Notes under the pieces: model-generated
Databases searched by the model: none
What the model was told of the DNA's origin: nothing
The model's input: only the letters and a program-made list of their open reading frames with translations
Translations under genes and position numbers: made by a program
Shown here: one piece after another, positions 9,801 to 36,826 of the stretch
Layout of the letters: each line of letters starts with the position of its first letter
How positions within the stretch are numbered: position 1 is the first letter of the stretch
Assembly (NCBI GenBank): GCA_020445605.1
Contig: JAGRGH010000030.1
Coordinates: forward strand, 1 to 64,000
Length of the DNA: 64,000 nucleotides
From: Chromatiales bacterium
GTDB taxonomy: Bacteria; Pseudomonadota; Gammaproteobacteria; JAGRGH01
Direction: 5' to 3'

Positions 9801-10880
9801 TCAGGGCGTCACTACGGACCGCCCCGGGGTGGTCGGCAGGCGGGGCATGGTGATTTCCGGAAACGGTCCCGTCAGGGCATTCAGAAACGCGACCACATCG
9901 GCGACCTGACTGTCAGTCACGGTCTTGGCGAGCTGCGACGGCGCCATGGCCCGTACGGCTTCATCGAGTGTGCGGACCTTGCCGTTGTGGAAGTACGGCG
10001 CGGTCAGCGCGACGTTGCGCAGGGTCGGCACGCGGTATTTGTGCCGATCCTCCTCGCGGCCGGTCACGGCAAACCGTCCCGCGTCGTCACGCAGATTGTA
10101 TTTCGCGACATACGGACTGTCGTGGAACGGGAACGAGATGAAAAAGCCCGTGCCGTCGGCCATGGTCGGACCATTGAACGCCGGTCCGCGATGGCAGGCG
10201 ACACAACCGAGTTGCTCGAAGGTCTGCATGCCGCGGACCTGCTGATCGGTCAGCGCGCTCTTGTCGCCGCGAACATAGCGGTCGTATGCGGAGTCCGGCG
10301 TGATCAGCGTGCGCTCGAATGCCGCGACGGCCTTTGCTGCGTTTTGCACGGTGACCGGATTGTCGCCGGGAAACTCGCGTTCGAACTGTTCGACATAACC
10401 CGGTATGTCGCGCACGCGTGCGATGGCGGTGTCGAGATCCTTCATGCCCATCTCGACGGATGCGACGACCGGACCCTTGGCCTGATCCTCGAGATTCTTC
10501 GCACGCCCGTCCCAGAACTGCACGCTGTGAAACGCGGCATTCCACACGGTTGGCGCATTGCGCGGGCCTGTGAGGCCGTGCACGCCCATGGAGGTTTCGC
10601 GGCTGTCGTCGCCGCCCGCTGCCAGGTTGTGGCAGGAGTTGCACGAGACCGTGCCGGTGGCCGAAAACCGCGGATCAAAGTACAGCTGTTTGCCGAGTTC
10701 GATCTTGCCCGGCGTCTGCGGATTGTCGGCCGGCGCCGGGGCCACCCGCGGCAGGGCCTGCCAGTCGTAGGCGAGGGCTGGTCCGGGTGCGGCGAACAGC
10801 ACGCACCCGAACCAGATCGCCGGCGCCAGGCGCGGAACCGGGCGCGCACAACGCGCCCGTAAACCGGATTCACGCCTCAT
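9801..10880 (-). CDS. periplasmic di-heme cytochrome c peroxidase (CCP/MauG family)
   Basis: 359 residues with an N-terminal signal region ending near PGPALA. Two haem sites, CNSCH and CVACH, lie in the N- and C-terminal halves as in bacterial di-heme peroxidases. GKQLYFDPRFS, the VWNAAFHSVQFWDGRA segment and the late KYRVPTLRNVALTAPYFHNG loop are typical. The protein would reduce peroxide with electrons from small cytochromes, though MauG-like oxidation of a partner is possible. ATG 10880 has AGGGA upstream. It starts 19 bases after the stop of the pentaheme cytochrome, so the two are very likely one operon. Confidence 0.88.
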   Translation of the reverse strand: MRRESGLRARCARPVPRLAPAIWFGCVLFAAPGPALAYDWQALPRVAPAPADNPQTPGKIELGKQLYFDPRFSATGTVSCNSCHNLAAGGDDSRETSMGVHGLTGPRNAPTVWNAAFHSVQFWDGRAKNLEDQAKGPVVASVEMGMKDLDTAIARVRDIPGYVEQFEREFPGDNPVTVQNAAKAVAAFERTLITPDSAYDRYVRGDKSALTDQQVRGMQTFEQLGCVACHRGPAFNGPTMADGTGFFISFPFHDSPYVAKYNLRDDAGRFAVTGREEDRHKYRVPTLRNVALTAPYFHNGKVRTLDEAVRAMAPSQLAKTVTDSQVADVVAFLNALTGPFPEITMPRLPTTPGRSVVTP

Positions 10881-10899
10881 CGCTGCGGTCCCTGTTGGC

Positions 10900-12396
10900 T
10901 CAGATATTCATCGAGACCGTTTCGTTTTCCATCTCGATCACCGGGATCTTCACCGCGCCCGCGCCGAGGATCACGTCGGCCACGTGCTGCGAATACGACC
11001 GGTAATTCAGACGCACCTGCGCGTTGACCTGCTTGGCGCCGCCGGGTGCCGCGAACGTGTAGAACGAGGTCGCATGGCCCTTCGGCGGGATCGAGGTGTC
11101 GCGGACGAAGCGCGAAACTTCCCACGGGAAGTGGGTGACTTCGCCCTTGTCGTTGACGGCGACCGCATTGAAGATCGTGTCGCGGTCGTGATCGAGTTCG
11201 CCGTGACTGTCGAGGTGGCCGCTCTTGTAGAGCACCTTGCCGCTGTCGTCGGTCACCGTGACCTCGAGCCAGATCTCGCGGACATCGGTGAGGCTGGTCG
11301 GCAGGTTGTGACCGGCGCCGGTGTTGGTGACCTGCACGCGCAGATCGTAAAGCCCGTCGTCACGCTTGGCGATCTTCAGATCCAGCTCGGCGGCACTTTG
11401 CAGGCGTTTGCGCGCAGCGGCGGCATGCTCGGAGTTTCCGCCACCCATGAGTTCGGTCACCACCGCGTTGCCACCGACGAAACTGTGATCGTGCACGACA
11501 TCACGCTGCGTTGCCGCACCCATGCCGGCAAAACCGCCGAGGTTCTCGCCCTCGAGATCCTCCGGCCGCTTGAGTTCCTTCGCGACACGAACCGCGGTTT
11601 CGACCGGGTTCATGTGGCAGTCCTGGCAGACGATGTTTTCACGCGCATACACCGAGTACTTCCACTCGTCATAGGTGCGCTCGATCGGGAAGCCGTTCGT
11701 CGGATGGAAGATGTTGTGGCAGTTGCCGCAGAAATCCGCCTGCTTGTGCAGCGGCGAATAGACCGTTGCGTGATACGGCGAGCGGGCGTCCTCGAGCGGG
11801 CCGCGCTTCGGGCCGCCGGGTCCCATCGGGTCGATTTCGAACGAGGCGTTGCCATGCTCGAGCGTCGCGGTGTCGAGATAGTTCGTGCGCGTGATCGTGT
11901 GGCAGACGTCACAGGAAACGCCCTTCTCGGCCAGCGGGCCGGCGGTGAACTTGTCGTTCTCCTTGTCGTGCACGATGCTGCCGGTCAGCACACCGATCGG
12001 CGAGTGGCAGGCGCCGCAATGATTCATGAGCGCGCCATCGGTCGCCTTCTCGGCCATGGACCAGAGCTTCTGGAACACCGGGTCCTTGAACGAGTTGGAG
12101 TGCATCGAGCCGTTCCAGCCCTTGTACTGGCGCGGATGGCAGCCACCGCAGACCGCCGGGTCTTCCCAGTCGGATTCCTTGAGTTTGCGGTCGCCGGGCA
12201 CGGTCATGTAGGACGGTGCGTACTGGAATTCCTTGTCGCCAGTGGGCTGCATGTGCTTGGGCATTTCGCCCATGACCTTCGCGCCGTGGTGCATCATCGC
12301 GCCCATCGCGTCTAACGGTGAGGGGGGTGAGGCGAGGGCGGTGGCCGAGCCGGCCAGCGTCACGGCCAAAATCAGACTGCGTGCGGTTGCGATCAC
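10900..12396 (-). CDS. periplasmic pentaheme cytochrome c (cytochrome c554-like)
   Basis: About 498 residues from the GTG at 12396, chosen because GGAGG lies 10 bases upstream and a signal peptide (LILAVTLAGSATALA) follows directly. Five CxxCH sites are seen: CGGCH, CGACH, CDVCH, CGNCH and CQDCH, all in the first half. The second half is haem-free and beta-rich by eye, with a VTNTGAGHNLPTS segment. The haem-binding part resembles the c554/HAO-related multihaem family. It is followed by the di-heme peroxidase, so it may pass electrons to it. Substrate and partner are not known; sulfur or nitrogen compounds are both possible. Confidence 0.8.
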   Translation of the reverse strand: MIATARSLILAVTLAGSATALASPPSPLDAMGAMMHHGAKVMGEMPKHMQPTGDKEFQYAPSYMTVPGDRKLKESDWEDPAVCGGCHPRQYKGWNGSMHSNSFKDPVFQKLWSMAEKATDGALMNHCGACHSPIGVLTGSIVHDKENDKFTAGPLAEKGVSCDVCHTITRTNYLDTATLEHGNASFEIDPMGPGGPKRGPLEDARSPYHATVYSPLHKQADFCGNCHNIFHPTNGFPIERTYDEWKYSVYARENIVCQDCHMNPVETAVRVAKELKRPEDLEGENLGGFAGMGAATQRDVVHDHSFVGGNAVVTELMGGGNSEHAAAARKRLQSAAELDLKIAKRDDGLYDLRVQVTNTGAGHNLPTSLTDVREIWLEVTVTDDSGKVLYKSGHLDSHGELDHDRDTIFNAVAVNDKGEVTHFPWEVSRFVRDTSIPPKGHATSFYTFAAPGGAKQVNAQVRLNYRSYSQHVADVILGAGAVKIPVIEMENETVSMNI

Positions 12397-12467
12397 GATC
12401 GGGTTACCTCCGGGGGGTTGCGCAGCGCCCGGCCATGCCGGCGGCGCGCTTGTATTATTTAGGGAAG

Positions 12468-12625
12468 CTCTGATCAATCCGTCCCGGATTGCCAGAGCGA
12501 CAAAAACGAAAAAGTGTCATTTTTCGTTTTCTTTCATTTTCAACGGCTCATAGCCGTCGAAAACGGCGGCGCTTCCTTAGTGCCGCGGGAAACTCTGAAT
12601 CGTTCAGGGTTTCCCCTGGCCGGCC
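12468..12625. repeat. structured intergenic repeat, copy B
   Basis: Shares its opening CTCTGATCAATCCGTCCCGG and layout with copy A at 7071. Hairpins: CGAAAAA / TTTTTCG with a different loop from copy A, then AACGGC / GCCGT. A further imperfect dyad, AACTCTGAATCGTTCAGGGTT, closes the element. It occupies most of the gap upstream of the pentaheme cytochrome gene. The stretch 12397-12809 holds this repeat, a terminator and a pair of direct repeats, and no gene. Confidence 0.65.
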
Positions 12626-21976: not shown

Positions 21977-22648
21977 ATGTTTCAGCACAGATCGGCGCAT
22001 GGTCTTGCACGGGTTCTCGTTCTTGCGGGCGCGATCTGTGCATCGGGTTTTGCCCACGCCAACGTCATCATCAACCCCGGATTTGAAGATCCGATCACCT
22101 TTGACGGGGCCCCATTCGTCGGGTTCTGGGAGGGGTTTTCGGCCGGCGGAGCTTCCAGCGTCGCGAACTCCATGGCGATGCCGCGCAGTGGCAGTCAGTC
22201 CGCCGAGTTCATCATCGACGAAGCGCCCAACCTGTTTGCGGGCGTTCTGCAGGACGTGGCGATTACGGCTGGAAACCTCTACGACTATTCGGGCTGGCAC
22301 AAGCTGATCGGCGACGCCGGCGGCATCGAAATTCGCATCGAGTGGCGCAACTCAGGCAGCAATACCGAGATCAGCCGCACATCGAACTTCACTCCGGTGC
22401 TCACCTCCGGCGCGGATTACGAGATGTTCTCGCTGACCGGCCTGCTGGCGCCCGCGGGGGCGGACACCGCGCGAGTCGTCTACGCCATCCAGAGCTTCGG
22501 CGGGGCAATCAGTCAGGACGTGTTTCTGGACGATGTTTCGTTCATGGGGCAGGGCGCGGAAGCGGCAGCCCCGATCGCTGCCACCCTGGCGCTAATGGGC
22601 GGTGGGTTGCTTGGATTGCTCGGCTTCGCCCGACGTCGCCGTAGCTGA
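21977..22648 (+). CDS. PEP-CTERM-like secreted protein
   Basis: 223 residues. Signal peptide (VLVLAGAICASGFAHA), then a beta-rich domain opening with VIINPGFEDP, common in surface carbohydrate-binding proteins. The C-terminus is a sorting tail: a hydrophobic segment (LALMGGGLLGLLGFA) followed by RRRR. The usual PEP tripeptide is replaced by API, so it is a variant of the exosortase signal; recognition by the host exosortase is likely but not certain. A sigma54 promoter and TGT-N11-ACA box precede it. Its last 57 bases overlap the 3' end of the gene on the other strand. Confidence 0.75.
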   Translation: MFQHRSAHGLARVLVLAGAICASGFAHANVIINPGFEDPITFDGAPFVGFWEGFSAGGASSVANSMAMPRSGSQSAEFIIDEAPNLFAGVLQDVAITAGNLYDYSGWHKLIGDAGGIEIRIEWRNSGSNTEISRTSNFTPVLTSGADYEMFSLTGLLAPAGADTARVVYAIQSFGGAISQDVFLDDVSFMGQGAEAAAPIAATLALMGGGLLGLLGFARRRRS

Positions 22649-25360
22649 ATCATTCCATTCCTGCGGTTCGCGGATCAGCAGTCGCTGCTGACCGGGCACG
22701 TCGCGAAGCGCCTGCACCCGGCCCCCGGGCCAGCGCACGATGATCTGGTCGGCCTTTTCGGCGCTGCCGAGGCCAAAGGTCCGCCACAGACTGTGCTGAG
22801 ACGCATAGGACGCGCCCGCCGTAATCAGCTGTGTGCTGGCCGCTGAGCCCGACACCACGGTTATCGTCGCGCCGATTGCGTCCCGATTGACGTTCGTTCC
22901 GGTCAGTTTGATGGTGATCGAACGATTCGCACCGCCGCGGTTCAGGTACAGGGCGTTCTCGCCGACCTTGTTGGTGACATACAGATCCGGATAGCCATCC
23001 TGATTGTAGTCGGATACGGCAAGTCCCCGGCTCGCGAGACTGTTGGCAAGTCCGGATTTCTGCACCACGTTCGCATATTGTCCGTCGCCCAAATTCAGGT
23101 ACAGGGAATTCAGGTTCCGTTTGCTGAACCAGAACTCGTCCTCGTTCTTGATGTCCCCGGTGACCGTCAGACCATTGGCGATGATGAGGTCCTGAAGTCC
23201 GTCGTTGTTCAGGTCGGCGAAGGCGCCCCCCCAGCCGTAGCGCTCGCGATCATCCAGCAGCCGCGATACCCGCGTGCGCTTGAAGCTGCCGTCACCGTTG
23301 TTGATCCACAACGGGTTGTCTTCGATCGTGGTCTCGTAGATGTCGAGAAAGCCGTCGTGATTGACGTCGGTGACCGCAACGCCCATCCCGGTGCTGTACT
23401 TGAGCAGTCCGGCCGCCTCGGTGACATCCGAAAACCGGCTGTTGCCGAGGTTGCGGTACAGGTGACTGGTGCCGAAATCGTTGGCGACGAACAGATCCAG
23501 CCAGCCGTCGTTGTCGTAGTCCAGCCATACCGGCTGGAACGAACAGTGACAGGCTTCGGGAGTATCGGTACTTCTGCCTTCGACCATGGCCGTGTAGTTG
23601 CCGCGGGTCACGGTCTCAAAGCCGGCAACTCCAGCCAGTTCGGCCACCTCGACGAAGCTGCCATCGCCTTGGTTGCGGAACAGCTGATTGGGTTCCGACC
23701 TGACCGACTGGATGTTGTAGACACCGTCATCATTCGTTTCCGCGATCATCGTCCCGTAGTTCGAGACATACAGGTCGAGATCGCCGTCGTTGTCGTAATC
23801 GCCCCAGGCCGCGGCCGTGGTGTGATTCGGCAACACGAGCCCCGCCTGCCGGGTCGCGTCCGTGAACGTTCCGTCGCCGTTGTTGCGCCAGAGCATGTTG
23901 GTCTGAGCATACCAGCGGTGATCCCGGAGCACGCCGTAATACAGAACGAGCAGGTCCTGATCGCCATCGGCATCGTAGTCGGCCCACAACCCGCCGGACG
24001 AACCCGGGTAAGCGGTGATGCCGCTCGGCTCGGTGATCTCCTGAAATCCGGTGTTTCCGTCGTTGCGGTACAGGCGACCGCCACGCGCCGCCGATACCCA
24101 CAGGTCGTCATCGCCGTCGCCGTCGTAATCGCCCCAGGACGCACCGGCATGGATGAAGTTCTGAATGGAATGGAGAATGTCGAGCTGCGGCGCTTCGGAC
24201 AGGTCGTGCTTGATCGCAACCGTGAACCGCGGGACCGGAGTCGAGCTGTCGGTTTCGAGAACGGGCTGCAGGAAGCCGCCGATCACCCCCAGAACCGCGC
24301 CCGACAGCAGCATATAGACGGCGATCTTGCGCGAGACGTGCCGCCAAAGGACCAGCGATGCATAGATGCTGACCGGTCCGAGTGAAATCAGCAGCGCAGT
24401 AGCCGGACCGCGGTCGAGGCCGAAGCTCAACAGTCCGAGAACGATGATGATGTCCACGAACATCGGCGCCGGCAGCAATGCGCCAAGGCATGCGGCGGCG
24501 ACGATCGCCCAGCCGCCGGAACCACCGAAAAAAATGAATTTCTCGAGCGGAAAGAAACTGAGCATGAGCGCGCCCAGCACCGCGACCAGCAACATGAAGG
24601 GCACGGTCCACTTGATGACGAACCACAGTTGCAGCAGCACCTGACGCAAGGTTGCGGCGGCGGCCTCGGCCCATGACTCGTCGCGGGAATGCGGCGTTAC
24701 GGCGACAGTAGTGTCACACGCGACCGCCGGTGAGCGCCTCGCCGCGGTGGCGCGCAGGATCAGCGGGATCGCGATCAACAGCAGTACGAGCGCGGCGCCG
24801 ACTTTGAGGGCCGCCATGTCCACCGGGAACACCGTGAACACGATGATGATGCCGATCGGGTTCAGCGCCGGCGATGCGACCATGGTGGCGAGCACGGTCT
24901 CGAGCCGGATTCCGGAGCGATACATCGACAGCCCGATCGGCGTCGCGCAGTTCGCGCAGACCCCGAGCGGCGTGCCCATGGCGATGCCGCCGAGCAGCGA
25001 GCCCAGCGCGGAGCGTTGGGCCTGACGTCGGATCCATGCGGTCTGGTGGAGAAAGACCAGCAGACATGCCCCGAACAGCACGCCGAAAGTCATGCCCTTG
25101 GCGTTGGTCTGAACCCAGTTGAGGCTGGTCCTGAGAACGCGCTCGGCAACGGGTTGCTGGGCAGAGGTGGCCATCATTTCTGTTTTGGAAATGACGCCGA
25201 CGTTGCGGTCGAGCAGCGTGTCGGATTCCGTACGGTTCCATTCCGACCACAGATCCGGATACCGCGATGTGAACCAGAACGTGGCGAGCACAAGCAGACA
25301 AACCCCGAGTGCGGCCCACCAGCGCTTTCTCGAATAGTCCTCGGCGAAGTCGATATGCAT
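22592..25360 (-). CDS. permease fused to FG-GAP/VCBS repeats and ASPIC/UnbV domain
   Basis: About 922 residues from the ATG at 25360 (a TTG lies just before). Residues 1-370 form an integral membrane permease of the DUF318/ArsP-like type: about eight helices, with the family motif GTPLGVCANCATPIG at 130-144 (Cys136, Cys139). Residues about 405-790 hold seven FG-GAP-like repeats with DxDxDG calcium-type loops (e.g. DYDGDGDDDLW, DYDNDGDLDLY). Residues about 815-880 form an ASPIC/UnbV domain as in CRTAC1-type proteins. Such repeats are normally extracytoplasmic. The join is within one open frame with no sign of frameshift. Transported substrate unknown. It overlaps tail to tail with the PEP-CTERM-like gene. 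Confidence 0.85.
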   Translation of the reverse strand: MHIDFAEDYSRKRWWAALGVCLLVLATFWFTSRYPDLWSEWNRTESDTLLDRNVGVISKTEMMATSAQQPVAERVLRTSLNWVQTNAKGMTFGVLFGACLLVFLHQTAWIRRQAQRSALGSLLGGIAMGTPLGVCANCATPIGLSMYRSGIRLETVLATMVASPALNPIGIIIVFTVFPVDMAALKVGAALVLLLIAIPLILRATAARRSPAVACDTTVAVTPHSRDESWAEAAAATLRQVLLQLWFVIKWTVPFMLLVAVLGALMLSFFPLEKFIFFGGSGGWAIVAAACLGALLPAPMFVDIIIVLGLLSFGLDRGPATALLISLGPVSIYASLVLWRHVSRKIAVYMLLSGAVLGVIGGFLQPVLETDSSTPVPRFTVAIKHDLSEAPQLDILHSIQNFIHAGASWGDYDGDGDDDLWVSAARGGRLYRNDGNTGFQEITEPSGITAYPGSSGGLWADYDADGDQDLLVLYYGVLRDHRWYAQTNMLWRNNGDGTFTDATRQAGLVLPNHTTAAAWGDYDNDGDLDLYVSNYGTMIAETNDDGVYNIQSVRSEPNQLFRNQGDGSFVEVAELAGVAGFETVTRGNYTAMVEGRSTDTPEACHCSFQPVWLDYDNDGWLDLFVANDFGTSHLYRNLGNSRFSDVTEAAGLLKYSTGMGVAVTDVNHDGFLDIYETTIEDNPLWINNGDGSFKRTRVSRLLDDRERYGWGGAFADLNNDGLQDLIIANGLTVTGDIKNEDEFWFSKRNLNSLYLNLGDGQYANVVQKSGLANSLASRGLAVSDYNQDGYPDLYVTNKVGENALYLNRGGANRSITIKLTGTNVNRDAIGATITVVSGSAASTQLITAGASYASQHSLWRTFGLGSAEKADQIIVRWPGGRVQALRDVPGQQRLLIREPQEWNDSATATSGEAEQSKQPTAH

Positions 25361-25441: not shown

Positions 25442-27781
25442 TTACTTTTCCGTCGGCGTCACCAGTTCGTCCGCGGCGCCGGGCATCTGCATGTTCGGCC
25501 AGCTGCGCAGGTGCAGGTCACGCTGCGGGAAGGCAATCTCGATGCCGGCCTTGCGGAACGCCGCGTCGATCGCGAAATTCAGATCGCTCAATACCGCAAG
25601 CCTGCGATCGACATTGCGTATGAAGCAGCGCAGTTCGAAATCCAGCGTCGAGTCACCAAAGCGCACAAAGATGACCGTGGGCTCGGGCACGCGTCCGTCG
25701 GTGATGACTTCCGGGTGCACGCGCCCGACCTCGAGCAGAGTCTGTTTGACCAGTTGCGTGTCGCTGCCGTAGGCGACGCCGACCGGTGCGCGAACGCGGC
25801 CCATGGAATCGCGCAGCATCCAGTTGGTGACCTGCCCGGAGATCAGCTCCGAGTTCGGCACGATGACGTCCGCGCGGTCGAAAGTCTGGATCTGCGTCGA
25901 GCGGATCGCGATCTTTTTCACATAGCCTTCGGTGCTGCCGACGACAATCCAGTCGCCGGTGCGGATCGGTCGCTCGATCAGCAGGATCAGACCGGAGACG
26001 AAGTTGTTGACGATATTCTGCAGGCCGAAACCGATACCGACCGACAGGGCGCCGGCGATCAGTGCGACATTCGTGAAGCTGACACCGGCGACCGACAACG
26101 CGATCAGCGCCGCGACGCCGGCGCCCAGATAACCGGCGGACAGGGCCGTCGCCTCGCGCGCACCGCGGTCCAGTCGGGTCTTTTTCAGCCAGCGCTGGTC
26201 CATCCTGCGCTTGACCCAGCCGGTCAGCGTCAGCAGGGCGGCGAACAGCAGCAGCGCGCCGAGGATGCGAACCGGGTGGACCGTGATGTCGCCGAGCGTG
26301 AACCCGTCGGCGACCCAGGACAGGGTGCGCTCGAACGCGAGATCGGAAAATCCCCAGGCGCGCAACAGCAGCAGCAGATAGCCGCCCCACAACACGATCT
26401 GCGTCAGAAACCGCAGCCAGCTCAGTCCCGGCGTCGTCTCGCCGGGCTTTACACCAAGACGCTCGCGCGCGCTGCGTTGCCAGCGATAGCGACCCTCGTC
26501 GAAGGCGTCGAAACCGTCCTCGGCGAGACGCGATATCAGCCACACCGTCGCGTAGCCGGCCAGCGTGATGGAAATGCCGCCGACCACGTAAAAACCGAGG
26601 TTGTGATAGCCGGCGAGGTCCGCGACCAGGGCTGCAAACAGTGCCAGCACCAGCACCACACGCAACAGCGCCGAGCGCCAGATCGGCAGGTCGCCGACCA
26701 GCCACAGCACCCAGGCGAGATTGACCACCACAACCACCGTGAACGCCGCGCGTGCCAGCAGCAGGGCGCCCGAGGGCAGGCTCGACCCGATTGCGCTGGC
26801 GAAGAACACCGCGCCGCCCAACAGAACGAAGGCCAGCAGGTGCAGCCGCCTGGCGAGTTGCACGGCGACCGTGTCCGGCACCGGCAGGAAGTGCACGGCC
26901 GGCGGCGGGGGCGCGAGCAGACCGTGAATGATGACGCGGGTGGGGGCGAAGACGGCCAGCGCCAGCCCGAGCACGAACAGGGTCGGCCAGGGCTGGTCCG
27001 GCACGCCGACAACGAACCAGAACGCGAGAATGCCGATCGCCAGCAGGATCCAAGGCAGTTCGCGAATCGCCGAGCAGCCGATGGCGCGCAGGGCGTCGGT
27101 GAGCAGGTCCGGCGGGTCGGCGCGCGCCGGCATCGCGGCGCTCAGCGTCCGCCGCAGTCCGAATCCGAACGCGAACGCAAGCCCGACGATCGAGATGAAA
27201 ACCGCCCGTTCGAGTTTGTCGAGCCGCATGAAGCTCGAGGAATCGGACAACAGGCTCGCGGCGGCGTCGCGCCACTGTCGGGCACTGCCCCAGTCCGAGG
27301 CGAAGATGCGCGTGATCGGTTCGCCGCGTTCGAGCAGCACGGCCCGCACGCGGGCCTCCCGATACGCCACCGCACGCGCGTACAGGTCGTCGGCACGCAG
27401 GTTCACGGCGCGACAGGCGGCCTGCTGTTTCTGCAGGGTCGGGATCTCGCTGTCGAGCGCGCGGCGCAGGTCCGTGGTCGCCTTGTCCTCACCGGCGATT
27501 ACATCGCCAAGTGCCTCGCGACGCGTCTGCGCCTCGACGAGCTTCGGATCAAGACGGGTCGAACAGTCCGCGAAATTGCGGCGCAGCGACAGCAGGTCGT
27601 CGAAGATCTGCGCCGGAATCGCGTCGTCGTCGCGCAGGCGCGAGAGCCTGAGTTCGATGCGATCCAGGCTGCGATCGCCCTCGGCCGGAACCGGCTGTCC
27701 GTTGGCGGGCGGTTCCGCGGCGTTTGTCACGCCCCAGATCAGCCACAGCAAGGCAAGCCCCGCGACACGAAGAGTATTCAA
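25442..27781 (-). CDS. MscS-family mechanosensitive channel, large (DUF3772 type)
   Basis: 779 residues. A signal peptide (LALLWLIWGVTNA) precedes a helical periplasmic region to about residue 190. Many membrane helices follow, then the MscS core: pore helix GALSVGIGFGLQNIVNNFVSG, the beta domain with GSTEGYVKKIAIRSTQIQTFDRADVIVPNSELISGQVTNW, and the C-terminal cytoplasmic part. It gates under membrane tension to release solutes. Its start overlaps the tamB stop as ATGA, so it ends a five-gene overlapping operon. A second channel of the same type lies on the other side of tamAB. Confidence 0.9.
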   Translation of the reverse strand: MNTLRVAGLALLWLIWGVTNAAEPPANGQPVPAEGDRSLDRIELRLSRLRDDDAIPAQIFDDLLSLRRNFADCSTRLDPKLVEAQTRREALGDVIAGEDKATTDLRRALDSEIPTLQKQQAACRAVNLRADDLYARAVAYREARVRAVLLERGEPITRIFASDWGSARQWRDAAASLLSDSSSFMRLDKLERAVFISIVGLAFAFGFGLRRTLSAAMPARADPPDLLTDALRAIGCSAIRELPWILLAIGILAFWFVVGVPDQPWPTLFVLGLALAVFAPTRVIIHGLLAPPPPAVHFLPVPDTVAVQLARRLHLLAFVLLGGAVFFASAIGSSLPSGALLLARAAFTVVVVVNLAWVLWLVGDLPIWRSALLRVVLVLALFAALVADLAGYHNLGFYVVGGISITLAGYATVWLISRLAEDGFDAFDEGRYRWQRSARERLGVKPGETTPGLSWLRFLTQIVLWGGYLLLLLRAWGFSDLAFERTLSWVADGFTLGDITVHPVRILGALLLFAALLTLTGWVKRRMDQRWLKKTRLDRGAREATALSAGYLGAGVAALIALSVAGVSFTNVALIAGALSVGIGFGLQNIVNNFVSGLILLIERPIRTGDWIVVGSTEGYVKKIAIRSTQIQTFDRADVIVPNSELISGQVTNWMLRDSMGRVRAPVGVAYGSDTQLVKQTLLEVGRVHPEVITDGRVPEPTVIFVRFGDSTLDFELRCFIRNVDRRLAVLSDLNFAIDAAFRKAGIEIAFPQRDLHLRSWPNMQMPGAADELVTPTEK

Positions 27782-30700
27782 TTGCGCTCCAGTTCGAATT
27801 CGATGCCAACGGCCTGCGCCTTGCCGGCGCGGGCCTTGAGTCTGAGTCGGTCGGTCAGTCGGTACTTCACCAGCAGGGCACCGCTCGGGTCGGCGAGCGT
27901 TGCCGCATAGCCGACGTAGAACTCCGGTTGCAGGTATTTTCCAATTTCCAGGCCGGCCTCCGCGAGTCCAGCGTCTGCGTCGATGCGGAATTCGTCCACC
28001 CCCAGCGCGGCGCCGATGCGCTGCAACAGCGGCTGGGCACGGTCCGCGCCGAGCGACAACGCCGCGCTGGCCAGCGCGTCGGCATCCGTGGTGCCGGCCG
28101 CGGCCAGCGGTTTTCCGGTGACGAGATACGCCAGCACCTGCTCGTCGGGCATCGCGGGTGTTGAGCTGAGCACCGCCTTGGGCTGCGAGACCGTGCCGCC
28201 GAGCTCGACCGCGGCGGTGACGTCGCCGGACGTGCGCTCTGCGCGCAGGTCCAGGCCGGGATCGTCCAGCGGGCCGGCGAACACGAACTCGCCGCGCGCC
28301 AGACGCAGGTCCTGCCCGTAGGCCTTGTAGCGCCCGTCGAGCACCACCAGTCGACCGTTGCCGCGCGGCGACTGACCCGGATTCTGGGTCAGGGCGACCT
28401 GGCCGCCGAGCCGCGCGCCGAGGCCCAGGCCATCGAAGCGGACATCCTCGCCTAGCGCAACCACGAGCTGTGCACGGATCGGCAGCGCCCGATCCGGTGC
28501 CACGGGGGTCTTCTGCGCCGCGGGGCCGATGATGACCTCGTCCGGGGACACCTGGACCGCGCCGCGCGGCAGTTCTTTCAGGCGGATTGCCGCGTGCGGC
28601 ACGTCCACGCGGCCGGTGAGGCTGAGTTCGCGGCCGTCGTGCGCAAGGTTCACCGTCGGACTCACATCGACCTGTGCCTCTGGCCAGTCGAGCGCGCGGA
28701 AGTCCTTGCCCTCGATCGCAAGGCGCAGCGGGAATCCGCTGTCGGCGTCCAGCATCAGTTTGCCATCGAGCCTGATGACACCGGTGCCGGACCGCGCGCG
28801 GCCGGCGATGGCAATGGCGTCAGCGTCGCCGCGGGCGGTCAGTTCGGCACCGGCCAGCTCGATGCCGGCGCCGACCAGTCGTGCGTGGCCGTCTTCGAGC
28901 CGGGCCTCGCCGGTCACGCGCGGTGCGACCGTGGTTCCGGACACCGCGAGGTTGGCCCGCAAGCGTCCGCCCAGTCCGTCGAGCTGGCCGATTAGCGGCT
29001 GGAACATGGCGATGGAATCGATCCGCGCGCTGGCCTGGCCGGAAAGCCGGCGATGACCGCTCGCATCGGTCGCGTCAGTGCTGAGTTCGGCGTCCAGTTT
29101 TCCGTCATCGGGTAACGCCGCCGTGAGCGTTGCGTGCAGCCGGTCGTCGGCAAAGCGCGCGGACGACCGTAGCGCGCTCAGCTGCAGGGGCGGGATCGCC
29201 GCGCCCGGGTCCGCGCTCGCGATGCCGATCGACTCGCTGCGAAGTTCCAGCAGCGCGGTGGCTGCGGGTGCGCCTGACCAGCGCAACTCGCCATCCACAA
29301 CGCCGGACGCCCGGACTCCGGCCGGCAGCCAGGGCGCTGCGAACGCGGCCGGAATCGCGCGAAACTCGGCGCTGGCCTGCGCTCCGTCGGGACCGTGTTT
29401 TGCCTGCGCGCAGACGCTGGCCTGCCCGCGCCGGATGCACATGCGCTCCAGGCCCGCGCGCCCGGTCCCGAGAAAGACCTTTGCCGGTTCGGCCAATTCC
29501 CAAGTGCCGGTGCCCGGCTCGTTCAATCGCAGGGTTTCCAGACGCCCGTTCCAGCGCTCGTCGGTCAGCGCGCCCGCGGCCGACAGCGAAACTTCAAGCG
29601 CGTCGGCACGCGCTGCGAGGGTCAGCGTGTGGGACTCGCGAGTGCCGTCGGCGGTCAGATCGACCCCATCGAGACCGATGGCGGCGCTGGTGATTTCCGT
29701 CGCCTTGAGCCCGATCCGCGACCGGGCGTTCGGCGCGAGGTCCAGCGCAGCGTCGAGTGCGGCCGTGCCGATCCGCCAGCCGGTCCAGCGGAGATTCCTG
29801 GCCGTTCCCGTCGCAGAGATGGCGGGCGCGGCGCTCGTCCCGGCGAGCTTGATCGCCGCCTTGAGCGAGCCGCCGAAATCTGCGCCCAGCCGCTGCAGCG
29901 CCGGGGCATCCAGCGTGAACTCGAGCGCATTGCGTTCGCCGAGCGAACCGTGTGCGTTGAGCCGGTTCTCGCCGAGACTCACCTCGAAATCGCGGAACTG
30001 TGTCTGGTTGCCAACCGCCACCGTGCCGCGACCGCTGAGCGGAAAGCCGCCGAGCGTCCCGCTGATCTGCTCCACCTCGGCGCGGACCACGGACGCGGCG
30101 GCGGGGTCGACTGTCAGCTTGATGCGGGCGTCGGCGCGTCCGGCCGCCACGGGCCAGAAGTTCGACGGATCGAGGCCTGCGGACTCCAGCGCCATGGTCA
30201 GAAACGGCACATCCGAAAACCGCACCTGACCACTGCCGGTCACGCGTCCGTCGAGCAGCGTCGCGTGCAGATCATCGATTGTCAGCTGCGAGCGGTCGCC
30301 GGAACCGCGAACCTTCAGGTTTCCGGGCGGAATCCCGGTTCCCGCGAACGAAGCCTCGGTCTCAAGGACATACTGATCGGTCGTGCCGGCGAGCTTGAGC
30401 TGCCCGCCGCCGCTGGTGACGAGCGCCGCGCCCTCCGGCGGCCAGCTGAGGTCGGCCCATTGCGCGTCCAGGTCGAAACGGGTCCGGGCGGCAAGCGGAT
30501 AGACGCCGCCGGTCAGACCCAAGGTCACGGGTGCCAAGAGGGTCTGGTCGAGTTCGATCCGCGCCAGCGTTCCGCCGAGTTTCCCGCGACCCGCGAATGG
30601 CTCGCCGTTCGCCGGTTCGAACCGCCAGCTGATTTCTGCGTCGAGCGGAAATCCTGTTACGAATCCGACTGTCGCGTGCCCCTGAACGGTGAGTGCGCCA

Positions 30701-31221
30701 CTGGCCGTTTTCAGTCTCGACAGGTGCAGTGCCTTCGCGTCCATGCGCGCCGACAGGTCGATGCGGTCGGCTGCATAGACATCGGTGCCGTCGTGCCATT
30801 GCAGGGCGGCGATCCGTGCGCGACCGATGCGCGCCGACCAGGCCGGGGCAAACTCCGGCAGCTCGATCCCGGCCGGTTCCGACGCCGGCAAGGCCACGCT
30901 CACACCCTCGGCGTCGATTTCGACGACATCCAGCATTCCAGCGAACAGCAGGGCCGGCCGCCAGTGCACATCGATTCGCGCAATCTCCACGCGGGTGTCG
31001 TCGATGCGCAGTCGCAGCTGATCGAATCCGAAGCGCTGGTCGATTCGCCCGCGAAATCCCTGGAATTGCGCGTCGATCGGCGCGCGGTCGAACAGGCGCG
31101 ATACCAGCCAGCGGCTGCCGCTTTCGGTCGTCGCCGCGCCGAGCAGGGCAGCCACCAACAGCGCCGCGACCAGCAGCAGCGCAAGCACGGTTCGCGTGAG
31201 CCAGCGGCCGGCGCGCGGCAC
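27778..31221 (-). CDS. tamB: translocation and assembly module protein TamB
   Basis: 1147 residues from the GTG at 31221, two bases after the tamA stop. A signal-anchor (TVLALLLVAALLVAALLGA) holds it in the inner membrane. A very long repetitive beta-taco region spans the periplasm. The C-terminal DUF490/TamB domain ends in a beta-rich tail (AGKAQAVGIEFELERN). TamB works with TamA to insert some outer-membrane proteins and in lipid transport between membranes. Length is slightly below the E. coli protein (about 1260). Order tamA-tamB is normal; flanking both with MscS genes is not. Confidence 0.92.
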   Translation of the reverse strand: MPRAGRWLTRTVLALLLVAALLVAALLGAATTESGSRWLVSRLFDRAPIDAQFQGFRGRIDQRFGFDQLRLRIDDTRVEIARIDVHWRPALLFAGMLDVVEIDAEGVSVALPASEPAGIELPEFAPAWSARIGRARIAALQWHDGTDVYAADRIDLSARMDAKALHLSRLKTASGALTVQGHATVGFVTGFPLDAEISWRFEPANGEPFAGRGKLGGTLARIELDQTLLAPVTLGLTGGVYPLAARTRFDLDAQWADLSWPPEGAALVTSGGGQLKLAGTTDQYVLETEASFAGTGIPPGNLKVRGSGDRSQLTIDDLHATLLDGRVTGSGQVRFSDVPFLTMALESAGLDPSNFWPVAAGRADARIKLTVDPAAASVVRAEVEQISGTLGGFPLSGRGTVAVGNQTQFRDFEVSLGENRLNAHGSLGERNALEFTLDAPALQRLGADFGGSLKAAIKLAGTSAAPAISATGTARNLRWTGWRIGTAALDAALDLAPNARSRIGLKATEITSAAIGLDGVDLTADGTRESHTLTLAARADALEVSLSAAGALTDERWNGRLETLRLNEPGTGTWELAEPAKVFLGTGRAGLERMCIRRGQASVCAQAKHGPDGAQASAEFRAIPAAFAAPWLPAGVRASGVVDGELRWSGAPAATALLELRSESIGIASADPGAAIPPLQLSALRSSARFADDRLHATLTAALPDDGKLDAELSTDATDASGHRRLSGQASARIDSIAMFQPLIGQLDGLGGRLRANLAVSGTTVAPRVTGEARLEDGHARLVGAGIELAGAELTARGDADAIAIAGRARSGTGVIRLDGKLMLDADSGFPLRLAIEGKDFRALDWPEAQVDVSPTVNLAHDGRELSLTGRVDVPHAAIRLKELPRGAVQVSPDEVIIGPAAQKTPVAPDRALPIRAQLVVALGEDVRFDGLGLGARLGGQVALTQNPGQSPRGNGRLVVLDGRYKAYGQDLRLARGEFVFAGPLDDPGLDLRAERTSGDVTAAVELGGTVSQPKAVLSSTPAMPDEQVLAYLVTGKPLAAAGTTDADALASAALSLGADRAQPLLQRIGAALGVDEFRIDADAGLAEAGLEIGKYLQPEFYVGYAATLADPSGALLVKYRLTDRLRLKARAGKAQAVGIEFELERN

Positions 31222-31223
31222 GA

Positions 31224-32942
31224 TCAGAATCCGATGCCGACGCGCAGATGCACCCGCAGGTCGGTGTCCGGATCATCCAGCGGGTGCGCGAGGTCGAGTT
31301 CGACCGGTCCCAGCGGCGAGTACCAGCGTGCACCGACGCCAATGCCGGAATTCAGCCCGCCCCAGTCGTTCCAGGCGTTGCCGGTGTCGGCGAACGCGGC
31401 AACGCCCCAGTCGGCGTGCACGGGCAGTTCGATCTCCGCGCTTGCGGTGGCGAAATATCGGCCGCCGATGACGTCACCGTCGTTGGACTTCGGGCCCAGC
31501 GTACGGTAGTCATAGCCGCGAACGCTGCGGTCACCGCCGGCGTAGAAACGATAGCGGGTCGGGAGTTTTTCGAAGTCGCTGACCCAGGTTGCGCCGCCGC
31601 CGGTGCGCAGCCGCAGTTTCAGCGGCCCGATCGTATCGAGCCAGCCGATTCCGGCCTCGATCTGGGTGAACTGTGTGCTTGGTCCCGGCGAGCCGCGCAG
31701 ATTCAGCGACCAGCGGCGACCTTTACGCGGGCGGCGGGCATCGTCCAGTGCTTCATGGTCGAAGCCCCAGAGCGGTGTCAGCAGCGTGACGGCACGATTT
31801 TTATCGCCGTCGTCGAAGCGCTCGTGCAGCAGCTCGATTCCACGGCGCTCCCGCCAGGCGTCTTCATGTTCGATTCGCCAGTCGCCACCGAGGCGTGCGG
31901 ATTGCGTGGTGCCGGTGTCGACCACGTCGTAAGCGAGTTCGGCGTCCAGCCCGAACGATTCCGGCCGCGCGGTTGCGATGCGCGGAAACCGGTATTCCAC
32001 ACCAAACTGTCCGGCGACCGGCGATGCCCGCAGTTCGGTACGCAGCGTGTGTCCGCGACGGTTCACCCGGCGGTTTTCGAAGGCTGCGGTGACCGCCGGT
32101 CCCAGGTCGGTCGAATACTCGGCGCCGACGCTGTAATGGAAGCGCTTGCGCGGGACGAGCGTCAGGCGCACGGGCACCCGGTTGTCGACTGCCGCGGCCG
32201 GGTCGGCATCGATCTCGACTCGCTCGAACCGGCCGCTTTCGCCGAGCGATCGGCGCAGCTCCAGCAGCCGTGCGGAGGTGAACGGCTCGCCTGCGCGCAC
32301 GCCGATCAGGTCATCGATCAGTCCCCGGTCGAAGGTGAGGCTGTCGTATTCGATCGCGCCAAACCGCAACAGCGGCCCGGTCGCGTACTCGATCTCCACA
32401 TCGGCGAAGCCGGCAACCGGATCGACGGCGAGCCGCGCGCGCGCGAACGAACCCAGCCGGTAGCCCTGCGCGACTGCGGCGTTCTCCAGGGCCTGTTTCG
32501 CTTCCTGATAGCGGCGGTGGTCGAGCCGGTCGCCGGTGTCGAGCCTCAGTGAGTCGGCGACCGGCCGCAGCAGCGGGTCTTCGGCACCGGGACCACTGTA
32601 GCCGGCGTCGACCTTGCGCAATCTCACCACCGGACCGGGGTCGATCGCGAGCCGCAGCCGCCAGCAGTCGCCGCCGCGCTCGAGGGCGGGCGTGACCGTA
32701 GCCTGGTAGTGACCGAATACCCGCAGGGCGGCGTCGACCTCCGCGGGCAGTCGGCGCAGTGCGCTCTGGAGTCTGGAATCTTCCGAATCGCATGGCTCCC
32801 CCGCGACCCCCAGGTGCGCGCGCACGTTGTCGGCGCGTGCGCCGCTGACGCCGTCAAGCAGGATCTGCGGCTCGGCGGGGTAAGCGGTACTCACGGTGGC
32901 CAGCAGCAGGGCCGCCGGCCACACGCGCGGAGCGGACCGCAT
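31224..32942 (-). CDS. tamA: outer-membrane assembly protein TamA
   Basis: About 572 residues; ATG 32942 overlaps the stop of the upstream channel gene (TGATG), with a GTG three bases earlier as an alternative. A signal peptide (LLLATVSTAYPA) is followed by three POTRA domains to about residue 270. A BamA-type 16-strand barrel begins near HYSVGAEYSTDLGP and ends in a terminal aromatic signal (LRVGIGF). The lid-loop motif GGDRSVRGYDY (normally R-G-Y/F) is present. Partner of TamB. Confidence 0.93.
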   Translation of the reverse strand: MRSAPRVWPAALLLATVSTAYPAEPQILLDGVSGARADNVRAHLGVAGEPCDSEDSRLQSALRRLPAEVDAALRVFGHYQATVTPALERGGDCWRLRLAIDPGPVVRLRKVDAGYSGPGAEDPLLRPVADSLRLDTGDRLDHRRYQEAKQALENAAVAQGYRLGSFARARLAVDPVAGFADVEIEYATGPLLRFGAIEYDSLTFDRGLIDDLIGVRAGEPFTSARLLELRRSLGESGRFERVEIDADPAAAVDNRVPVRLTLVPRKRFHYSVGAEYSTDLGPAVTAAFENRRVNRRGHTLRTELRASPVAGQFGVEYRFPRIATARPESFGLDAELAYDVVDTGTTQSARLGGDWRIEHEDAWRERRGIELLHERFDDGDKNRAVTLLTPLWGFDHEALDDARRPRKGRRWSLNLRGSPGPSTQFTQIEAGIGWLDTIGPLKLRLRTGGGATWVSDFEKLPTRYRFYAGGDRSVRGYDYRTLGPKSNDGDVIGGRYFATASAEIELPVHADWGVAAFADTGNAWNDWGGLNSGIGVGARWYSPLGPVELDLAHPLDDPDTDLRVHLRVGIGF

Positions 32943-35149
32943 CACTTCGGTTCGGGGGGCTCTGGTCGGGTTTCGCGCTCGCTCCGGTCGGCCGCGGCGC
33001 GGCGTTCGAGTGTCTCGCGATACCAGCCCGCGGCGTCGTCGCCACTACGGCCGAACAGGCTGCGCACGTGCAGATCGCGCTGCGGGAACGGAATCTCGAT
33101 GTCACGCTCCTTCAGCGCCTTGGCAATGGCGCGCCGGTATTCGGCCATCACCGTGCCCGGGCGCTTGACGGCATCGGGTTTCAGCCAGACGACGAGTTCG
33201 AAGTCCAGGCTCGAATCGCCGAACCCGACCAGCCACACCCCCGACGTTAGTCCGCCACGGGTCAGGGTATGCGGTACGGAGGCCGCGGCGGCCAGACCGG
33301 CGGCTTCGACCTTGTCGATATCCGTGCCGTAGGTAACGCCGAACGGAATGCGCTGGCGTCGAAACGCCTGGCGGAGGGTCCAGTTCGTCACGCGGTTCGA
33401 CATCAGGTCGGAGTTCGGCACGATGATGTCGATGTTGTCGTTGGTGTTGATCAGCGTCGAGCGGATGTTGATTTCCTTGACCTCGCCGGCGAGGCCGTCG
33501 GCGAGTTCGATGAAGTCGCCCACCTTCAGCGAGCGTTCGAACAGCAGCATCAGCCCCGACACGAAATTGTTCACGATCGACTGGAGACCGAAACCGATGC
33601 CGACGGACAGCGCGCCGGCGACGATCGCGAGATTCGTGAAGTCCAGGCCGATCGACGACAGCGCCACGACCACGCCGATGATCAGGATGACGTGATGGGC
33701 GAGGCGGCTGATCGAGTAGAAGCCGGACGCGCGCACCGCCTCGCGTTTTTCGGCGAGCCGGATCAGCGCATTGCGCACCAATCTGGAAATCCACCAGGCG
33801 ATCGCCACGATCAGCACCACGCGCAGCAGGCCGAGCGCGGTCACCGGGGTGTCCGAGATGGTGAACAGCGTTTCGCCGCTCCAGTTGCGCAGCGTCGCCC
33901 AGACCGTACCGAGCGCGGCCAGCGTGCTCGCCCAGAGTCGGCCGGCACTGCCGGATGCCGCGTTGCGGCGATGATCCAGCTCCGCGGCCAGCAGTCCGAG
34001 TTCGTCGAGCGTGTCGCGCGCCTGTTCGATCGCCGGCAGCGCCTTCTGCACGCTGTCGAGCACCCGCTGCAGCGTCTTGCGGGCAGCGCCGTCGGTTGGG
34101 TTCAGGCTCGCCAGCCGCGAACTGGCCTCGCGCTGATAGCGGTGCGCATCGCGTTCGAGTTCCGCCAGGCGCGTGGCGCTTTCCTTTCTGAGGTTCTGCG
34201 TGTCGGCTTCGCTTTCGCCACCGCCGGCCAGCGACTGGGACAGCGCGAGCCGGGTCTCGGCGGCGGCCACGGCGAGCACGGCGGCCAGTTCGGCGGCACC
34301 GGCCTCGGTGCCCCGCTGGCGGGCCAGCAGATTGTCGGCGTCGCCGACCGGGTGATCAGACGCCTCGCTGAGCGCCTGTGCTTCGGCACGCAGCAGCCGC
34401 GAGCGGGCCGCATCCAGCGCCGCGCGCTGGTTGATGAGTTCCGACTCGGCCGCGCTGACCTGCCCGGCATCCGCGTGCAGGTGGTCGTCGACCTTGGCGC
34501 TCAAGCCGCGCAGGGATTGCAGGTGCGCCGCGGCGGCCCGCGCCGCGGCCTCGGCGAGCCGCGCACGCTCCACCGCGGTGGCCAACGCCGCGCGATCGGC
34601 GATGAGTTCCATGCCGAGATCAATGTGTCCGGGATCGTGCGCCGCCTGGGCCAGGTACTCGGCCAGGCGGTTGTTGAAACGCTGGCGCGCCGCATCGACG
34701 CTGCGTTTGAGGATCCGGGCGTCGGTCTGCTTGTCGGTGGCATCCAGCTCGGCGCGCCGCAGTCCGTCGTGGAATTTCAGCCAGTCCGCAATGCTGTAGC
34801 GCGACGCGAGCTCGGGAACCGGCGGGTTCTGCGGGCCCTCCTGTGCCTTCAGGCGTGGCAGGGCAGTGGCGTTGAGCTGGTAGCGTTCGAAGCTGTCCTG
34901 TCGGGCCGGCGCGTCCGCGAGTTGCGCCAGATCCGCACCAATCTCGTTCAGGCGTGCGGTGAGCTGGTCGCCGGCGTCGTCGATGTACTTCCAGAATCCC
35001 GCGGCCAGTGCATCGGGGCGGGGCCGTACGCCATTTTCCGGCTCGGCCTTGTCGGCCGCCGGCAGCCCCGGGATCTGCGCGAGCGCAGTGGCGGCGGAGC
35101 ACAGGAGCCCGAGCAGGACTCCGGCCGCAGCACGCCGGATGCGGCTCAT
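32942..35149 (-). CDS. MscS-family mechanosensitive channel, large, second copy
   Basis: About 735 residues from the ATG at 35149, which overlaps the corA stop by one base; an ATG nine bases earlier is also possible. A signal peptide (GVLLGLLCSAATALA) precedes a long, Ala- and Arg-rich coiled-coil periplasmic domain to about residue 420. Then come helices and the MscS core: GALSVGIGFGLQSIVNNFVSG, the VKEINIRSTLINTNDNIDIIVPNSDLMSNRVTNW beta region and PFPQRDLHVRS. The core is nearly the same as in the channel after tamB, whereas the N-terminal part differs, suggesting an old duplication with new sensor domains. Stop and tamA start overlap. Confidence 0.9.
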   Translation of the reverse strand: MSRIRRAAAGVLLGLLCSAATALAQIPGLPAADKAEPENGVRPRPDALAAGFWKYIDDAGDQLTARLNEIGADLAQLADAPARQDSFERYQLNATALPRLKAQEGPQNPPVPELASRYSIADWLKFHDGLRRAELDATDKQTDARILKRSVDAARQRFNNRLAEYLAQAAHDPGHIDLGMELIADRAALATAVERARLAEAAARAAAAHLQSLRGLSAKVDDHLHADAGQVSAAESELINQRAALDAARSRLLRAEAQALSEASDHPVGDADNLLARQRGTEAGAAELAAVLAVAAAETRLALSQSLAGGGESEADTQNLRKESATRLAELERDAHRYQREASSRLASLNPTDGAARKTLQRVLDSVQKALPAIEQARDTLDELGLLAAELDHRRNAASGSAGRLWASTLAALGTVWATLRNWSGETLFTISDTPVTALGLLRVVLIVAIAWWISRLVRNALIRLAEKREAVRASGFYSISRLAHHVILIIGVVVALSSIGLDFTNLAIVAGALSVGIGFGLQSIVNNFVSGLMLLFERSLKVGDFIELADGLAGEVKEINIRSTLINTNDNIDIIVPNSDLMSNRVTNWTLRQAFRRQRIPFGVTYGTDIDKVEAAGLAAAASVPHTLTRGGLTSGVWLVGFGDSSLDFELVVWLKPDAVKRPGTVMAEYRRAIAKALKERDIEIPFPQRDLHVRSLFGRSGDDAAGWYRETLERRAAADRSERETRPEPPEPK

Positions 35150-36111
35150 CAGAGCCATTTGCGCCGCCGGAAAAACCACAGCAGACCGATCGTGATCAGG
35201 GCCATCGAACCGAGCAACATGAAGTAGGCACCGCGCCATTCGAGTCCCGGGATGTAAGCGAAGTTCATGCCAAAGATGCCGGTCAGCAGGCCCAGCGGCA
35301 GGAACACCACGGTGGAGATGGTCAGAACCCGCATGATCTGGTTCAGACGATGACCGCTGATCGAGATATAGCCGTTGATCAGGTCGCCGGCCGTTTCCAG
35401 GTACAGCCGCGACAGGCTCGCGTAGCGCTCGGAATGGTCGATCAGGTCACGAACCTCGTGTTCCGAAGCCTCGCCGGCATGCCCGGGCAGGGCGCCGAGC
35501 AACTGGCCGAACACGTGCGGGTAGTAGCCGAAGATCCGGCTGACCCGGCGCAGCGCGGTGTGCAGGGCGACGGTCTCGGCGAGCAGTTCGTCGTCGCCGG
35601 CCGTCAGGATCTGCGCCTCGATCCGGTCGAGCCGTTCCTCGACCGCGAGCAGGCGTGGCTCGATGTCATCGAGCAACTCGCGTGCCAGCCGGTAGGCCAT
35701 GGCGACGTTCCCCTGGATGCGTTCGCCGGCCTCGATGCGTGCCAGTGTGCTCTGCACGCCGGGCGATGGCGCCGGGTGGCGTGACACGACGAGATCGGCG
35801 GCCACGAAGATGGCGGTCTGCACGACCGGAGGCTCATCCAGTTCGGAAAGATCATCACTGAACTCCTTGAGTAGCAAGAGAAAATGATCTTCAAACGACT
35901 CGAACTTCGGAGGGTGTCGCGCGCGCAGCGCATCGGCCACTCCGAGCGCGTCAAAGCCCAGGGTCGCAACCAGCAGCGCCTGCTCGGCCGCGCGATCGGC
36001 GCCGTCCAGGTCCAGCCACACCCAGTTCCCGTTGCCACGTTGACTCAGCAGGGATGTGTCGGGCGCGCGCGCGACAACGGCCCCGGACTGGTCGAACAGC
36101 ATGGAAAACAT
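35149..36111 (-). CDS. CorA-family divalent cation transporter (ZntB-like)
   Basis: About 320 residues from the ATG at 36111, with GGAG six bases upstream; longer frames upstream run through a repeat and are rejected. A cytoplasmic alpha/beta funnel is followed by two C-terminal helices. The gate signature is GIFGMNF, then a loop and the second helix ending in a basic tail (FRRRKWL). Moves Mg2+, Co2+ or Zn2+; the zinc-exporting ZntB group is also GxN-type, so the ion is not fixed. First gene of the corA-mscS-tamA-tamB-mscS unit. Confidence 0.9.
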   Translation of the reverse strand: MFSMLFDQSGAVVARAPDTSLLSQRGNGNWVWLDLDGADRAAEQALLVATLGFDALGVADALRARHPPKFESFEDHFLLLLKEFSDDLSELDEPPVVQTAIFVAADLVVSRHPAPSPGVQSTLARIEAGERIQGNVAMAYRLARELLDDIEPRLLAVEERLDRIEAQILTAGDDELLAETVALHTALRRVSRIFGYYPHVFGQLLGALPGHAGEASEHEVRDLIDHSERYASLSRLYLETAGDLINGYISISGHRLNQIMRVLTISTVVFLPLGLLTGIFGMNFAYIPGLEWRGAYFMLLGSMALITIGLLWFFRRRKWL

Positions 36112-36249
36112 CAGTAGCTCCGCTGCGGAGGAAAATCGGCATCGCGGCCCCGGTGCGGGCGAGCCGGCCGGGTCTGCGCGGTGGTCAGGGCATCGCCGGG
36201 TCCGCCGGGATGATAGCAGTGCCATGCTTGAACCCAGCGGAGGCAACCC

Positions 36250-36392
36250 AACAGATTGTTGAAAAAGGCCCATCCATGGCCTTTTCAACATCGCAACCGA
36301 AAAGCGCGGTTTTCGGTTGCTCACGAAAAATAAACACTTGCGTGTTTGATTTTCGGGCGAGACGTCCCTGTCTCGCGGCATCAGGTCAGCCG
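36250..36392. repeat. structured intergenic repeat, copy C (divergent)
   Basis: Four successive hairpins: TTGAAAAAGGCC / GGCCTTTTCAA, GCAACCGAAAA / TTTTCGGTTGC, CGAAAAATAAACAC / GTGTTTGATTTTCG, and CGAGAC / GTCTCG. The last has the same CTTCCCT/GTCCCT-type loop and GC-rich tail as copies A and B. Sequence otherwise differs, so it is a distant member. It lies in the 379-base gap between corA and clpS, which are divergent; the rest of the gap shows no gene. Confidence 0.6.
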
Positions 36393-36490
36393 GGCGCCGA
36401 TCGTGGCATGGCCGGGCGGGGCTCGTTTCCCGATTCGGGCCGGATTCGGTGATTTGGTTGCCACCCATACTTGCTAAAATTCTGACGACG

Positions 36491-36826
36491 ATGAGCGGCG
36501 AGCACGAGCACGAAGAACACGAGGAAGGCGGCGACCAGGCGCTGGCGCTCAAGCCGGCGCGTCCGCAGCTGAAACAACCGCCGCTTTATCAGGTCATACT
36601 GCTGAACGACGACTACACACCGATGGAGTTTGTCGTCGAGGTGCTGGAGACCTTCTTTGGCATGAACCGCGAACAGGCCGTGCGGATCATGCTGCATGTC
36701 CACACCCGCGGGCGCGGGGTGTGCGGCGTGTTTCCGCGCGATATCGCGGAGACGAAGGTCGGCCAGGTCACGCGTCACGCACGTCAGAATCAGCACCCGC
36801 TGCTGTGCACGATGGAGGCTCGATAA
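36491..36826 (+). CDS. clpS: ATP-dependent Clp protease adaptor ClpS
   Basis: About 111 residues from the ATG at 36491. ClpS delivers N-end-rule substrates to ClpAP. Seen are [20 protein letters not shown] (binding pocket with N-D-D and the Met gate), [21 protein letters not shown] and the end LCTMEAR. The acidic, His-rich N-terminal tail fits the flexible arm. It precedes clpA by five bases, the standard pairing. An in-frame ATG at 36449 would add a hydrophobic tail and has no RBS. Confidence 0.95.

Follow-up and report, generated by a model that had tools for sequence, protein, structure and literature searches.

ArsP is a methylarsenite exporter, with the export of trivalent organoarsenicals as its defining trait, and bacteria commonly encode CRTAC1/ASPIC proteins, whose conservation extends to humans; for the bacterial ones, no molecular role was found in this work. 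The window analysed here, a stretch of 64,000 nucleotides (positions 1 to 64,000 of contig JAGRGH010000030.1, Chromatiales bacterium), carries a single gene that joins a permease to a propeller, both halves of which belong to known families. No description of this pairing was found in the open-licence papers searched, which is not proof of its being undescribed. The gene and its parts, all on the minus strand, are:

22592-25360 (-): whole fusion gene, 922 aa, with an ATG start at 25360
24257-25330 (-): helical membrane part, a DUF318/ArsP-superfamily permease (residues 11-368; PF03773 and model)
24938-24970 (-): PLGVCANCATP motif with the CxNC pair (residues 131-141)
22919-24235 (-): predicted seven-bladed FG-GAP/calcium-blade propeller (residues 376-814; Pfam and model)
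24113-24130 (-): blade motif 1, DYDGDG (residue 411)
23963-23980 (-): blade motif 2, DYDADG (residue 461)
23783-23800 (-): blade motif 3, DYDNDG (residue 521)
23504-23521 (-): blade motif 4, DYDNDG (residue 614)
23351-23368 (-): blade motif 5, DVNHDG (residue 665)
23198-23215 (-): blade motif 6, DLNNDG (residue 716)
22994-23011 (-): blade motif 7, DYNQDG (residue 784)
22679-22879 (-): ASPIC/UnbV domain (PF07593)

The frame runs uninterrupted from 25360 to 22592 (-), as the initial annotation had claimed for the path from permease to ASPIC domain, and a TTG is present one codon upstream of the ATG. No ATG, GTG or TTG was found between residues 360 and 457, a segment that covers the join at about residue 370 and the first blade, so the propeller half is without a start of its own. 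GC3 is even across the gene, at 0.81 in the permease half and 0.79 in the propeller half.

The pairing is not a one-off: 14 other copies were analysed, eight of them from other genomes and six from plasmid loci of Roseobacteraceae. A search of 94 genomes with the permease half yielded five strong relatives, all open frames of 961-1140 aa, and profile searches added fused copies from the same class (G232) and from other classes of the phylum (G424, G745), together with a permease from the class that is unfused and 371 aa long (G283). Pfam assigned an identical domain order to five of the genomic fusions. Eight plasmid records from Roseobacteraceae and allied bacteria matched as well, all annotated as 'FG-GAP-like repeat-containing protein', and six intact plasmid loci (L136-L141) and one broken locus (L142) were read. 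The nearest genomes compared with the window were class-level kin only. A check of the domain architecture, as proposed at the outset, found the matching fusion conserved in distant relatives, and since the domain order recurs there, the fusion in the window is neither a chance product nor a chimeric assembly.

Neither a frameshift nor a separate start between the two halves was found among the relatives. A one-base shift in one genome (G033, in the region of L105:9570) lies within the first membrane segment of an otherwise intact fusion gene and is either a sequencing error or the mark of a decayed copy; on a Parasedimentitalea marina plasmid (L142:12046-15067), the fusion is annotated as three pieces and broken inside the propeller half, and is probably a decayed copy. 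A pattern scan for related loci gave relatives of the propeller half only, none of them fused, since most of the patterns used as seeds had been drawn from that half. In the phylum to which G747 (Edaphobacter; Acidobacteria) belongs, 297 genomes were searched; the clear permease matches were unfused, with 360-390 aa, and no FG-GAP gene was found beside them at the three loci read. The permease-propeller fusion is real and rare, and occurs in scattered Proteobacteria.

For the N-terminal half, the initial assignment to the ArsP/DUF318-like permeases was confirmed with Pfam: PF03773 (ArsP_1) scores 45.1 bits against a curated cut-off of 32.3, the match spanning residues 91-362 (numbering +1, counted from the TTG), and the permease motif quoted at that time, GTPLGVCANCATPIG, is present in the protein. 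It is the only ArsP_1 protein of the window genome. Every member of the subfamily that was checked, fused or not, retains the CxNC pair except L130, where nearby residues differ (TNCATP), and the pair aligns with the CxC motif (CSC/CSCC) in the first re-entrant segment of ArsP-like permeases. The permease halves of the relatives are about 30-37% identical to that of the window. Six distant fusions show no variation in the whole permease, its CxNC pair and many of its buried Gly/Pro residues. Together with five unfused members, the fused ones form a branch apart from the sampled ArsP-like permeases (support 100/99; 100/100). Scores against two efflux families were weak, with 29.1 bits for SO_0444 Cu/Zn efflux (NF033936, cut-off 300) and 37.9 bits for SaoE efflux (NF040736, cut-off 325). 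A profile search found no solved structure related to the permease by sequence, and a model of the permease by itself, made from the single sequence, was poor (pLDDT 51) and was not used.

In the C-terminal half, FG-GAP_3 (169 bits) and FG-GAP (76.5 bits) both score above their curated Pfam cut-offs, and the ASPIC domain named in the initial annotation was recovered as UnbV_ASPIC (PF07593) at residues 829-895 (numbering +1, counted from the TTG) with 56 bits against a cut-off of 23.4. Of the seven DxDxDG repeats listed there, all seven are present in the relaxed form Dx[DN]x[DN]G and only four in the strict one. The Dx[DN]xDG-type motif binds calcium in other blades (PMC3123361), and the seven blades are predicted from their motifs to be of the calcium type. 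The window genome encodes four ASPIC proteins. On its contig C51 (L184:4975-10215), a 1079-aa ASPIC protein with a long N-terminal part lies next to a small secreted protein and to the sole S74/tail-fibre-like secreted protein that the genome encodes.

An AlphaFold model of the fusion was built with 25 related sequences, with plasmid-derived rows left out of the alignment, and has a mean pLDDT of 81 and a pTM of 0.66. Residues 11-368 are helical in this model, from a helix at 11-41 to one at 344-368. Matches to the propeller filled the structure search with the whole model; residues 374-900 match mouse CRTAC1 (9etn_A) with a Z score of 42.8 and an rmsd of 2.4 over 453 aligned residues, well above the next matches, and Foldseek agrees on the CRTAC1 fold (E 2.6e-24). 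In 14 sequences, the loops at 1-14, 107-118, 205-229 and 341-346 contain K/R and almost no D/E, and most fused members have a net negative charge in the loop at 42-70; this charge pattern would place the N-terminus in the cytoplasm and the propeller in the periplasm. The number of cysteines is even in the propeller halves of all 15 fusions, which fits an oxidising compartment. The propeller half is thus predicted to lie outside the inner membrane, in line with the extracytoplasmic module proposed initially.

Against stand-alone proteins of other phyla, the window's propeller half scores about 255 bits; against its fused relatives, it scores only about 60-83 bits. A stand-alone protein of 695 aa from G035 carries the Cys-rich insert shared by the other fusions and matches their propeller half over its full length, with 448 bits. 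Propeller-half trees group this protein with the other fusions in a supported branch (99/96) that excludes the window, which is placed among stand-alone proteins and adjoins one from G079. A single fused clade had a p-value of 0.021 in the first propeller set, which had been chosen with the window's own half, and of 0.136 in a broader set. With modest support, the permease trees separate the window from the other fusions, and one fused clade was not rejected (p 0.226 and 0.123). With these values for the broader propeller set and the permease trees, two fusion events are not regarded as proven. The window half is similar to CRTAC1-type proteins that stand alone and has no Cys-rich insert like that of the other fusions, so a single permease type was probably combined with two distinct propeller modules. 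The trees favour such an origin, either by two separate joins or by one join and a later exchange of the propeller half.

The genes around the fusion in the window are:

35149-36552 (-): CorA, first gene of a packed run leading to the fusion
32942-35239 (-): MscS type, following CorA in the packed run
31224-32945 (-): TamA, in the packed run
27778-31221 (-): TamB, in the packed run, before the MscS-type gene that adjoins the fusion
25442-27781 (-): MscS/MscK-type mechanosensitive channel, 81 bases upstream of the fusion
21977-22648 (+): PEP-CTERM-like secreted protein, convergent, with 57 bases shared with the 3' end of the fusion

Within the run from CorA to the adjoining MscS-type gene (25442-36552, -), most neighbours overlap by a few bases, and joint transcription with the fusion is possible. 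None of the neighbours assigned to families is an ars or other metal-resistance gene. Neither a Pfam family nor a clear PEP motif was found for the PEP-CTERM-like protein. The linkage to PEP-CTERM and exosortase genes, suggested for checking, is not conserved: among the loci read, such a neighbour occurs only in the window and at L104, the two proteins share no homology, and the one exosortase of the window genome sits on another contig. Further away in the window, a di-haem cytochrome c peroxidase (CCP_MauG) adjoins a multihaem cytochrome c554-like protein (9801-12477, -).

Among the relatives, a small secreted protein is encoded upstream of the fusion at all seven intact loci of one alphaproteobacterial branch (L131, L136-L141), and six of these seven also encode an S74/tail-fibre-like secreted protein with a C-x4-C motif. 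Genes for SEL1-repeat, type II secretion, tail-collar, sulfotransferase and giant Ig-like proteins are often found near these fusions. S74-like proteins were present in only 2 of 25 genomes searched, the window's own and G424, in the latter upstream of the fusion. Sulfotransferases lie near several fusions, one of them a TPR-sulfotransferase beside the fusion at L104. The unfused permease of G283 (L133:8370-13129) is encoded between an MbnP gene and a gene for an MbnH-type di-haem peroxidase, a pair linked to methanobactin operons (PMC3621798). No one partner recurs at every fusion locus, so the partner may differ between lineages.

Our tentative reading is that of an inner-membrane permease for a thiol-coordinated ligand with a tethered periplasmic CRTAC1-like module that docks an envelope or secreted partner, an account which we prefer while giving it somewhat less than even chances. 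The N-terminal half would be a DUF318/ArsP-superfamily permease with its N-terminus in the cytoplasm, and its last membrane helix would hold the C-terminal CRTAC1-like module in the periplasm. The permease would carry a small ligand coordinated by thiols, most likely a soft metal ion, past the CxNC pair and through the inner membrane, and the tethered propeller would dock a secreted or envelope partner at the exit, where ligand and partner could meet. Both the transport of a metal and the docking of a partner are suggested by the CxNC pair, the distant kin and the neighbours. A metal is indicated as ligand by the alignment of CxNC with the CxC of ArsP-like permeases, by the weak SaoE and SO_0444 matches and by the position of L133 between MbnP and the di-haem peroxidase; a secreted partner is indicated by the small secreted and S74-like proteins at the alphaproteobacterial loci and by the envelope genes (TamA/TamB, MscS) next to the window gene. 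Against this reading, no S74-like partner was found at the gammaproteobacterial fusion loci, the neighbourhoods of the fusions differ widely, and there is no metal-resistance gene among the annotated neighbours of the window gene.

The permease might instead have ceased to transport and serve as an anchor for the CRTAC1-like propeller, which would help to fold, hold or deliver secreted surface proteins. The type II secretion, S74-like, tail-collar and giant Ig-like secreted proteins nearby, TamA/TamB near the window gene, and the fact that CRTAC1-type proteins elsewhere function without a permease all fit such a role; yet a single helix would suffice as an anchor, whereas the permease, CxNC and many buried Gly/Pro are invariant in six distant fusions. 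We regard this explanation as less likely than the preferred one. We consider it rather unlikely that the protein is an efflux pump for a thiol-reactive compound (an organoarsenical, Cu or Zn) in which the propeller would sense calcium or a ligand in the periplasm. Membership in PF03773, the CxNC pair and the weak similarity to the Cu/Zn and SaoE efflux families speak for it, but the scores are far below both efflux equivalogs, no ars genes occur in the neighbourhoods read, and the propeller is no known sensor.

It is improbable that the protein exports a secondary metabolite whose biosynthesis is encoded nearby, or confers immunity to it. At L108, the fusion lies between NRPS genes, with a sulfotransferase, and in G745 (L132:3992-16413) it lies within a lasso-peptide-like cluster that encodes two tail-collar proteins, a PqqD-like protein, a sulfotransferase, an HprK-like kinase, an asparagine synthetase, an ABC exporter and a protein of the B2-type transglutaminase fold; these are, however, only 2 of 15 loci, and the window, L104-L107 and the roseobacter loci are without such a cluster in the stretches read. 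Finally, despite the N-terminal frameshift in one relative and the broken copy on one plasmid, we reject as wholly implausible that the join is an assembly chimera, a read-through frameshift or two genes with a separate internal start, given the shared architecture of distant genomes, the lack of a start codon at the join and the even GC3.

Returning to the preferred reading of a permease with a docking module, the same permease subfamily may have been joined in separate lineages to two different CRTAC1-like propellers because transport and partner docking must coincide, with the fusion acting as a membrane station that metallates exiting surface proteins; we offer this as a speculation of low probability. 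Through its covalent link to a permease, which distant Proteobacteria have retained and which may have arisen twice, the CRTAC1/ASPIC module is connected with an inner-membrane transporter, and this offers a concrete test of the module's role. The fusion also corrects the public annotation, in which the names cover the FG-GAP half only and hide the transporter half.

Compared with the ArsP_1/DUF318 permeases (ArsP, SO_0444, SaoE), the fusion shares the Pfam match, the helical membrane fold and a cysteine pair at the CxC position; it differs from them in belonging to a subfamily of its own, in having CxNC in place of CSC and in carrying a large C-terminal module. With the fused family of Gamma- and Alphaproteobacteria annotated as 'FG-GAP-like repeat-containing protein', it shares the permease subfamily and the domain order, whereas the propeller half of those fusions has an insert, usually with six conserved cysteines, that the window protein lacks. 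Like CRTAC1 and the bacterial CRTAC1/ASPIC-UnbV proteins, it has a putative seven-bladed calcium-type propeller followed by an ASPIC domain; those proteins, however, stand alone and are secreted, while the module described here, without a signal peptide of its own, is tethered to a permease.
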